Shown: piece by piece, positions 1-41,187 of the stretch
How the letters are laid out: each line of letters starts with the position of its first letter
Numbering within the stretch: the stretch's first letter is position 1
Origin: Sporomusa sphaeroides DSM 2875
Lineage (GTDB): Bacteria > Bacillota > Negativicutes > Sporomusales > Sporomusaceae
Direction: 5' to 3'
Assembly (NCBI RefSeq): GCF_001941975.2
Contig: NZ_CP146991.1
Location: 4,829,501 to 4,893,500, forward strand
Length of the DNA stretch: 64,000 nt
The notes under the pieces: model-generated
The model's database searches: none
What the model saw: only the letters and a program-made list of their open reading frames with translations
What the model was told of the DNA's origin: nothing
Made by a program: the position numbers and the translations under genes

Positions 1-369
1 CCTATTCCGTTCCGACTTGACCTCTTGCTCGTATGCCTGCAAGGATTCGTTGGCCTTCTGCAATAAGCCCTGCGCTGTCAATAAGTTTTCCTTGGCTACT
101 GTCGATTCGGCTTTCAGCACCAGCAATTGATTCTGCAACGCCGCCAAGTCCGCCTGATATTCTTCCAGCTTCAGCCGCGCTTGCGTCAAGTCCGTTTTCG
201 ATTGCTCCAAGTCGCTCAGCAGCCGCCCGTTGTTCTCGCTGAGCTGCTGAAATATCTGCTCCAACCTGGTCAACTCCTGATCTGTCATGCTGTACTGAGC
301 CGAACAGGTACCAGGCAGCGAGGCCAGCAAGCAGGCAACCAGTACCGATAGCAATAGTCTTTTTATCAC
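1..369 (-). CDS. Overlapping-frame exported coiled-coil protein, candidate outer-membrane spanin (o-spanin), partial
   Basis: This frame is open for 123 codons from a GTG at 369 to the window edge and lies inside the neighbouring membrane-protein gene in a different frame. The GTG has an AAGGAG ten bases upstream. The product starts MIKRLLLSVLVAC, a charged n-region, a hydrophobic core and an LVAC lipobox; a signal peptidase I site (CSA/Q) further on is the alternative. From MTDQELTRLEQIFQQLSENN onward it is a long, regular, Leu/Glu/Lys-rich coiled coil. Known of the family: Rz1-type o-spanins are lipoproteins whose gene starts inside Rz and pairs with it to fuse inner and outer membranes at lysis. 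The position after amidase and holin fits. The role is inferred; the C-terminus lies outside the window. Confidence 0.68.
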   Translation of the reverse strand, partial: MIKRLLLSVLVACLLASLPGTCSAQYSMTDQELTRLEQIFQQLSENNGRLLSDLEQSKTDLTQARLKLEEYQADLAALQNQLLVLKAESTVAKENLLTAQGLLQKANESLQAYEQEVKSERNR

Positions 370-406
370 TGAGAATCATCTCCTTTATCTTGGTTAAACT
401 AAACAT
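2..406 (-). CDS. Small bitopic membrane protein, candidate inner-membrane spanin (Rz-like)
   Basis: A 134-residue protein with an ATG at 406, chosen over an ATG 36 bases upstream because GGGAGAGGAG precedes it. Residues about 17-37 form one transmembrane helix (IAIGTGCLLAGLAAWYLFGS) after a short basic N-terminus, so the Ala/Gly/Ser-rich helical remainder should be outside the cytoplasmic membrane (N-in, C-out). This is the topology of an Rz-type i-spanin, and a candidate o-spanin frame starts inside it and extends past its stop. It follows the amidase by about 45 bases. No sequence family was recognised with certainty, so the call rests on topology, position and gene overlap. Confidence 0.62.
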   Translation of the reverse strand: MFSLTKIKEMILSDKKTIAIGTGCLLAGLAAWYLFGSVQHDRSGVDQVGADISAAQREQRAAAERLGAIENGLDASAAEAGRISGGLGGVAESIAGAESRIDSSQGKLIDSAGLIAEGQRILAGIRARGQVGTE

Positions 407-452: not shown

Positions 453-1031
453 TTATTGACTAAGATAATCAGTTACGCCACGGGCTATGGCTCTTGCCAT
501 CCTATCCCGCCAGGTCGGATTTGCCAGCAGTGCGGCTTCTTCCGGATTGCTGATAAAAGCCATTTCGACAAGCACTGCCGGCGCATTAGTGTACCTAAGC
601 ACATAAAAATTTTCCTCTTTATCAACGTCACCGTCAGACCAGTCGGCACGAATTGGCAAGTCCGGAAATGTGACTGCCACCTGATTAGTAATGCAAGTTG
701 CAAGCCGATCAGCGCCAGTGTTGCCTTTAGTTGTGTAGATTTCAAAACCTTTGGCCGCCGGATTAGTCGCAGAATTACAATGCAAACTGACAAATAAATC
801 GGCTCCCCAGGCATTTGCAACATCACAGCGGAATTGCAGGCTATCGGTTTCCGGCTGTTCCCTCTCGGTTCTGGTCATTCGGACCAGGCACCCTGCCGCA
901 TCTAAATAGTGCGTTACTAATTTGGATACCGCTAAATTTACATCCGCTTCCTGCAAACCGGTTATGGGGTTGCATGCCCCTGGGTCAGTTCTCCCGCCGG
1001 CGTGGCCGGGGTCAATTACGCTTTTAGCCAT
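453..1031 (-). CDS. Endolysin, N-acetylmuramoyl-L-alanine amidase (Amidase_3)
   Basis: A 192-residue zinc amidase that cleaves the bond between N-acetylmuramic acid and L-alanine in peptidoglycan. The family signatures are all present: DPGHAGG (His10), a Glu in GLQEADVN (Glu28), SLHCNS (His84) and the catalytic Glu156 in VLVEMAFISN. The protein is just the catalytic domain, with no signal peptide and no cell-wall-binding domain, which implies release through a holin. Its start overlaps the holin stop at 1031, so the two are translationally coupled. It lies between holin and spanin candidates in a classical lysis cassette. Confidence 0.93.
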   Translation of the reverse strand: MAKSVIDPGHAGGRTDPGACNPITGLQEADVNLAVSKLVTHYLDAAGCLVRMTRTEREQPETDSLQFRCDVANAWGADLFVSLHCNSATNPAAKGFEIYTTKGNTGADRLATCITNQVAVTFPDLPIRADWSDGDVDKEENFYVLRYTNAPAVLVEMAFISNPEEAALLANPTWRDRMARAIARGVTDYLSQ

Positions 1032-1477
1032 TACAGTTTTACCCCCTTTTCCTCTCTAATCTGGATCAGTTTATTCCGCAAAAAAACGGGTATGTAGTGA
1101 CCATATCCCAGCCGGTCTATGTTTTCCAACAGACTTGTTACCTCAACTATCGCAAAACCGAACAACGCCATGGAGCGCAGTGTATTTGTCCCCATAGCCA
1201 CGTCTGCCCAATATGCTACAGCAACAGCGGCAAACATGGCTATCTTTTTTTGCATACCCTTATAGCCCTTACGCGAGCTAATTTCGTCCCGCCTGCTGGC
1301 CGCCGCCCATCCGGTTATATAGTCGGCTAGGGCAAAACCAAGCAATGCCCATACTTGATTATCAACGCCGCCGATAGCAAAGGAAAAGCAGGCTCCTAAA
1401 ACAGAGCCCGCCGCTAGGATTTTTATCTCGCTGATCGTGTAAAAGGTTTTGAGCCAAATAAATACATCGTTAATCAA
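1031..1477 (-). CDS. Phage holin, Phage_holin_4 (TcdE/BhlA-like) family
   Basis: The holin makes the membrane holes that let the amidase reach the wall. About four hydrophobic segments are visible (IKILAAGSVLGACFSFAIGG, VWALLGFALADYITGWAAA, IAMFAAVAVAYWADVAMG, MALFGFAIVEVTSLL), with the motif ADYITGW and the C-terminal NIDRLGYG/IPVFLRN typical of this family. The frame is open upstream to 1525, but that stretch is part of a terminator hairpin, so I prefer the TTG at 1477 behind a G-rich GGGGGTGGGG; the start is uncertain. The gene is immediately followed by the endolysin gene. Confidence 0.85.
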   Translation of the reverse strand: MINDVFIWLKTFYTISEIKILAAGSVLGACFSFAIGGVDNQVWALLGFALADYITGWAAASRRDEISSRKGYKGMQKKIAMFAAVAVAYWADVAMGTNTLRSMALFGFAIVEVTSLLENIDRLGYGHYIPVFLRNKLIQIREEKGVKL

Positions 1478-1492
1478 ATTCCCCACCCCCAA

Positions 1493-1515
1493 CAAAAATA
1501 GAGCCTTTCGGCTCT
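1493..1515 (-). terminator. Rho-independent terminator between tail and lysis genes
   Basis: On the minus strand AGAGCC-GAAA-GGCTCT is followed by ATTTTTGTT. It begins at the stop codon of the 40-residue protein gene (TAA at 1517-1515) and would reduce or end transcription from the tail operon before the holin. Confidence 0.75.
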
Positions 1516-1637
1516 TACTCTGCAATCAGTCTCTCTGCCACCGCTTCCCTGTACTCTTCCGGCACATCTGTTTCAAGTGCCATTCGTCCAGCCTTGACTA
1601 AATAGGTGTAGGCCGTGATTTTCCAAGAAATCAACAT
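1515..1637 (-). CDS. Small phage protein of the CD1375/XkdX type
   Basis: A 40-residue product beginning MLISWKITAYTYLVKAGRMA and ending VPEEYREAVAERLIAE. This pattern (an aromatic/hydrophobic start, a Lys-Ala-Gly-Arg core, a VPEEYR-type motif and a short C-terminal helix) is that of the tiny proteins found between tail fibre and holin genes in Firmicute contractile-tailed phages. Function is not known. It starts two bases before the stop of the upstream 85-residue protein and ends in the terminator stem. Confidence 0.72.
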   Translation of the reverse strand: MLISWKITAYTYLVKAGRMALETDVPEEYREAVAERLIAE

Positions 1638-40902: not shown

Positions 40903-41187
40903 TCACTCCTTCCAGTAATTTATGGTTAACCGGTCCCCCGGATGAATCAGCCCATACGGCTGCCTGTCCTTAAACACGGCGTCCCAGTTCTCCTGGATGA
41001 TTCCCTCACGGAACTCACGAACGTCGCGCCTGACGGCTGATTTGGCCATATAACGCAAGGATATTGCGTCCAGAGTGTCACCGGATTTTACCGTATAGGT
41101 TTCTGTCACCAGGTGGCCCTTCGGCCCTGCATTACCGCAACTGGCCACAGCTAGGGCGATTAGGCCAGCAATTACAATCCGTTTCAC
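40903..41187 (-). CDS. LysM-domain lipoprotein
   Basis: A 94-residue protein with a GTG start whose coding region overlaps the upstream stop. It starts with a lipoprotein signal (MKRIVIAGLIALAVASC, lipobox VASC with Cys17), then one LysM peptidoglycan-binding motif (TYTVKSGDTLDAISLRYM) and a C-terminal HPGDRLTI. It is exported, lipid-anchored and should contact the cell wall. In a phage early region this is unusual; exclusion of superinfecting phage, as with Ltp or Llp-type lipoproteins, is a reasonable but untested idea. Confidence 0.8.
   Translation of the reverse strand: MKRIVIAGLIALAVASCGNAGPKGHLVTETYTVKSGDTLDAISLRYMAKSAVRRDVREFREGIIQENWDAVFKDRQPYGLIHPGDRLTINYWKE

Follow-up and report, generated by a model that had tools for sequence, protein, structure and literature searches.

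Overlapping genes at the end of a Negativicute prophage lysis cassette encode a candidate spanin-like pair without a lipoprotein

Two long genes, here termed A and B, are encoded in different frames of the same DNA at the end of a prophage lysis cassette, and the pair they form is probably the third, outer-membrane-disrupting stage of lysis in Negativicute prophages, similar to a two-component spanin but free of a lipoprotein. On sequence grounds the pair is likely to work as a spanin does. Because the lipoprotein feature was looked for and found to be absent, A/B nevertheless lies outside the spanin class as that class is defined. As far as the literature searched shows, no study has addressed the means by which phages get through the outer membrane when the host has no outer-membrane lipoproteins, and searches for spanins in Negativicutes, Veillonella, Selenomonas or diderm Firmicutes returned nothing relevant. 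Negativicutes reportedly have no Lol system, and described spanins need a lipid anchor; A/B is a concrete candidate answer. If this reading is true, the membrane-fusion work of spanins would be separable from the lipid anchor, lysis genes would have converged on an overlapping arrangement, and the rupture of the outer membrane in diderm Firmicutes, some of which are human commensals, would become accessible to study.

Two genes in one stretch of DNA

The window, which is the whole stretch of 64,000 nucleotides that was analysed (G000:C1:4829501-4893500, from a genome of 5.0 Mb), carries gene A at positions 406-2 of the minus strand, with an ATG start, a product of 134 aa, and a stop codon at 4-2. 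Gene B is on the same strand, and the first 123 of its 142 codons occupy positions 1..369, beginning with a GTG at 369. Neighbouring DNA was fetched to follow B beyond the window edge, where the gene continues for 57 bases (L008:7369-6941, minus strand, 142 aa in full) in the +1 register of A, giving an overlap of 365 nt. The original prediction had B running past the end of A, and in the extended sequence its stop codon is indeed 20 codons past that of A, with the DNA beyond the edge encoding a hydrophobic C-terminal tail that is conserved. The proposed GTG start has its Shine-Dalgarno sequence AAGGAG (380..385, minus strand) within gene A, at a spacing of 10 nt. The starts of A and B are 37 nt apart in the window copy, each with its own ribosome-binding site; in about 10 of 28 homologues only 4 nt separate them (ATGaATG or similar), several of these pairs lying behind a single Shine-Dalgarno sequence, and two of the 28 (L015 and L019) lack a standard start for A at the conserved position. 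Some homologues offer only ATT or ATA for A. Because the genes are superimposed, with GTG or TTG starts, the pair is easily missed by gene callers.

Separate searches with A and B across 150 related genomes recovered largely the same loci. Both frames are kept at approximately 50 homologous loci from prophages of Negativicutes and from viral contigs, with proteins down to ~28% identity; this total comprises 28 loci studied in detail, further members of the class, extra intragenomic copies, nine more IMG/VR contigs and one gut phage contig. In all 28 detailed loci neither frame is interrupted anywhere in the overlap and the register is the same, and among the ~50 there was no intact locus with one frame broken and the other kept, the event that would have counted against the prediction of a conserved pair in other Negativicute prophages. 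Two loci are fragments in which both frames are cut (L024 and L106), and in L035 the tail of B is out of frame. Apparent stops within A of some homologues were found, in the cases checked, to be upstream of A's start.

Since the locus set includes close relatives, the tests of selection are not fully independent and their figures serve as guides: shuffling the synonymous codons of B while keeping the B protein would leave A open in 1.5 of the 28 loci, and shuffling those of A would leave B open in 3.5, as compared with 28 of 28 observed in each case; the third positions of B differ in 79 of 359 codons in the overlap but in 38 of 67 in the non-overlapping tail (three separate pairs; Fisher p 3e-8); and third-position differences in A amount to 0.09-0.16, as compared with 0.27-0.30 in endolysins, within a close group that has a comparable endolysin. 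In shuffles of the window copy by itself, A remained open in 12.5% and B in 0.75%. The overlap is therefore not a product of chance, and the comparisons clearly indicate purifying selection on both frames. Codon bias can produce overlapping open frames, but the notion that a single frame is genuine, with the second as its by-product, is almost certainly wrong, contradicted as it is by the two-way shuffles, by the codon-position rates, and by distinct conserved features in both proteins. A/B is also a strong natural example of selection maintaining two long genes within one DNA stretch.

Decayed copies were also seen. At L009:2078-3036 and L010:1811-1944, in the same genome, the opening ~68 bases of the A region survive and the rest of A/B is lost, with the L009 copy lying behind an amidase gene that is 85% identical at the DNA level. 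In G091, G101, G565, G659 and L106, short ORFs (55-63 aa) resemble B over its final ~50 residues alone, and are perhaps remnants or a separate short tail protein.

Lysis cassette, prophage and hosts

On the minus strand, the tail and baseplate genes are followed by a holin gene (1031..1525; Pfam Phage_holin_4_1, E 1.5e-25; PHROG 199), by an endolysin gene for an N-acetylmuramoyl-L-alanine amidase directly upstream of the pair (453..1031; Pfam Amidase_3, E 7.7e-46), by A/B, and by a terminator-like hairpin with seven T just 3' of B. A holin-endolysin cassette of this kind is common in Firmicute phages. From its terminase, portal, sheath, tape measure and baseplate genes, the element is a contractile-tailed prophage. 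The original prediction of a prophage lysis context in a diderm Firmicute thus held, with the pair in the last position of the cassette, after holin and endolysin, where spanin genes are expected. Most homologues examined have an endolysin-type gene upstream of the pair, which may encode an Amidase_3, GH25, Amidase_2 or VgrG3-like C-terminal domain; as these families are unrelated, the pair is linked to lysis generally rather than to one enzyme.

The surroundings of the pair vary. A small membrane-protein gene sometimes stands between the endolysin gene and the pair. Extra ORFs of 63-72 codons separate the endolysin from A/B in L014, L016, L017 and L018, and those of L014 and L016 have a hydrophobic segment at the C-terminal end. 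Just past the terminator-like hairpin of the lysis operon, outside the window and to the left of the prophage end (L008:5417-6626), a subtilase-like gene of 347 aa overlaps an ORF of 69 aa that ends in YQPTASCV. In a second prophage (L009:693-1262, minus strand), one ORF encodes an N-anchored protein of 76 aa that contains a PPP stretch; beyond its stop codon the same frame encodes a protein of 105 aa, whose hydrophobic C-terminal tail resembles the ending of B, and the two ORFs are possibly one interrupted gene. No canonical lipoprotein spanin was found elsewhere in the prophage among the lipobox ORFs in ~82 kb scanned. That scan gave only a predicted lipoprotein of 94 aa with a LysM-like motif (TYTVKSGDTLDAISLRY), at 40906-41187 of the window (minus strand) and far from the lysis cassette.

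Matches to B at E <= 1e-8 occur in 90 of 300 sampled Negativicutes (~30%), and named relatives include Propionispora and Sporomusaceae. The matches inspected among 384 sampled genomes from the rest of the phylum were coiled-coil noise, being long coiled-coil frames without an intact A-type partner frame. Annotated phage records gave one weak match, an unannotated human-gut phage contig with both frames. The restriction to Negativicutes could reflect phage lineage and not envelope type.

With regard to lipoprotein sorting, a search for LolA gave no match in the host genome and 40 relatives (41 genomes), under conditions in which the E. coli positive control was matched. Lol components have been reported missing in Negativicutes, and Veillonella has been reported to have no proven outer-membrane lipoproteins (PMC5007114, PMC5491611, PMC10665443). 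Mass spectrometry of Veillonella found no lipidated outer-membrane proteins, a result that its authors call inconclusive (PMC5491611).

The two proteins and what they may do

Protein A was originally described as a bitopic membrane protein, and this description agrees with an N-in signal anchor (residues ~17-36), a linker (37-43) and a coiled coil (44-131). The AlphaFold model consists of a helix over residues 3-36, the linker, and a second helix over 44-131, with an anchor of ~19 residues; the hydrophobic segment is present in 28 of 28 homologues, and the N-terminus is neutral or positive in 26. A profile search against the PDB matched coiled coils, such as those of chemoreceptors, tropomyosin and syntaxin, which are taken as a sign of structure type only. 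A therefore has the N-terminal transmembrane domain and the coiled-coil domain by which i-spanins are recognized, and is a predicted inner-membrane protein whose coiled coil is presumably periplasmic.

Protein B has a signal peptide with an SPase I-type site, a continuous proline-free helix, and a hydrophobic C-terminal tail of ~13 residues followed by RK. The structure model is helical over residues 30-141 (~112 residues, mean pLDDT 91), the mature protein is proline-free in nearly all members, and a conserved motif, YxITExELTRLE, is found near the N-terminus. All 28 homologues have the tail, whose length of 13-16 residues makes it shorter than the anchor of A, with K or R at or near its end, and in 27 of 28 it is preceded by net positive charge.

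The LVAC lipobox from which B had been predicted to be a lipoprotein was not borne out, as its cysteine, Cys13, lies too near the N-terminus, does not satisfy the PROSITE lipoprotein rule, and is not kept in homologues. Across the family, the strict o-spanin pattern [LVI][ASTVI][GAS]C occurs in 2 of 28 members and is not conserved in place, and the PROSITE rule is satisfied by 0 of 28. What stands of the predicted spanin pair is hence the overlap, the lysis context and an i-spanin-like A; what does not is B as an Rz1-type lipoprotein, given a family without a lipobox, a hydrophobic tail, and a host class with no known Lol system.

A later cysteine in the signal peptide (Cys22 of the window copy, in the context GTC) is present in most members. 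Part of its conservation follows from bases that are common with the WYLFG motif of A. The Leu codon of A that overlaps the cysteine ends in G in 14 of 14 cases, as compared with 44 of 236 elsewhere. This bias suggests that the cysteine is itself under selection, for which an ordinary SPase I site does not account. It is conceivable that Cys22 is lipidated and that B is the outer-membrane half of a true two-component spanin, with an unusual lipobox and a novel route to its destination, a reading to which the selection suggested by A's codon choice and the serine that precedes the cysteine in two distant members (AGSC) would both lend themselves. We consider it unlikely, since the residue before the cysteine is mostly T, I, L or M, approximately 10 lineages lack the cysteine and have AxA-type SPase I sites in the same column, and the C-terminal hydrophobic tail of B is absent from o-spanins; the missing lipobox, the LolA search and the Veillonella mass spectrometry, with its authors' reservation (PMC5491611), weigh in the same direction.

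It is harder still to accept that B forms a unimolecular, u-spanin-like bridge by itself, A being its partner or regulator, for although an export signal at the N-terminus and a hydrophobic segment at the C-terminus reproduce the layout of T1 gp11 (PMC6139136), the tail found in all 28 homologues is not accompanied by the lipobox of unimolecular spanins, and A is always present and also under selection. Finally, both proteins can be drawn as inner-membrane proteins, and their place in the cassette is also compatible with lysis-timing regulators (antiholins or holin partners) or with another late inner-membrane function that involves no outer-membrane disruption. That reading is quite improbable, because exported long coiled coils in the last cassette position fit spanins better, the cassette already encodes a holin, and no genuine match was seen in the 384 genomes sampled from the rest of the phylum, presumably monoderm for the most part. 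Neither A nor B matches any known holin family, the Phage_holin_4_1 gene being separate.

Under the preferred reading of a spanin-like disruptor, a third lysis step is needed because the phage must leave a two-membrane cell. The helices of A and B would both be periplasmic and would pair with each other, held apart by peptidoglycan until holin and endolysin act; once freed, they would zip or collapse and push the inner membrane against the outer membrane, leading to fusion or tearing. With less assurance, the short tail of B may serve as an anchor or fusion segment on the outer-membrane side, and may substitute for a lipid that could not be delivered in hosts without a Lol system. It is possible, but doubtful, that A/B represents a distinct class of disruptor for hosts without lipoprotein sorting, in which the anchors are protein only, the N-terminus of A sitting in the inner membrane and the short C-terminal helix of B in the outer membrane, and the two membranes are fused or torn. 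Alternatively, the tail of B may be anchored in the inner membrane, and the conserved motif near its N-terminus would then reach outwards.

Relation to known lysis systems

Searches of Pfam and NCBIfam assigned A and B to no family, with only coiled-coil matches below cut-off, and no PHROG matched the window copies at E 1e-3. Each of the Rz-like spanin PHROGs concerned was matched by one or two homologues (E 3e-6 to 9e-4) amid coiled-coil noise; these scattered matches are of coiled-coil type and give no convincing homology to known spanins. Fold searches of a viral library with both models returned no match, as expected for models that are single helices.

The known outer-membrane steps of phage lysis include two-component spanins and u-spanins, both of which are lipid-anchored (PMC6139136), and disruptins of the phiKT type are a further route (PMC12819732). 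A/B is like lambda Rz/Rz1 in that two lysis genes, the last of a holin-endolysin cassette, overlap in the +1 register in the 'overlapped' layout, with B ending after A, and in that A is an N-in bitopic coiled-coil protein and B is exported. Unlike Rz1, which is short, proline-rich and lipidated, B is without a lipobox and consists of a proline-free helix of ~112 residues with a hydrophobic C-terminal tail; and unlike Rz/Rz1, the overlap of A/B takes in almost the entire length of the two genes, whose starts in homologues can lie just 4 nt apart. Embedded o-spanins mostly begin near 0.4-0.5 of the i-spanin (PMC6139136). B and the u-spanin gp11 of T1 both combine an export signal at the N-terminus with a hydrophobic segment at the C-terminus, but gp11 has a lipobox (LSGC) and acts alone, whereas B has none and its overlapping partner is always present. 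With disruptins, A/B would have in common a lipoprotein-independent route to the outer membrane, and the tail of B is cationic and then hydrophobic; in contrast to those short amphipathic antimicrobial peptides, B is an exported coiled-coil protein of 142 aa that is paired with A.
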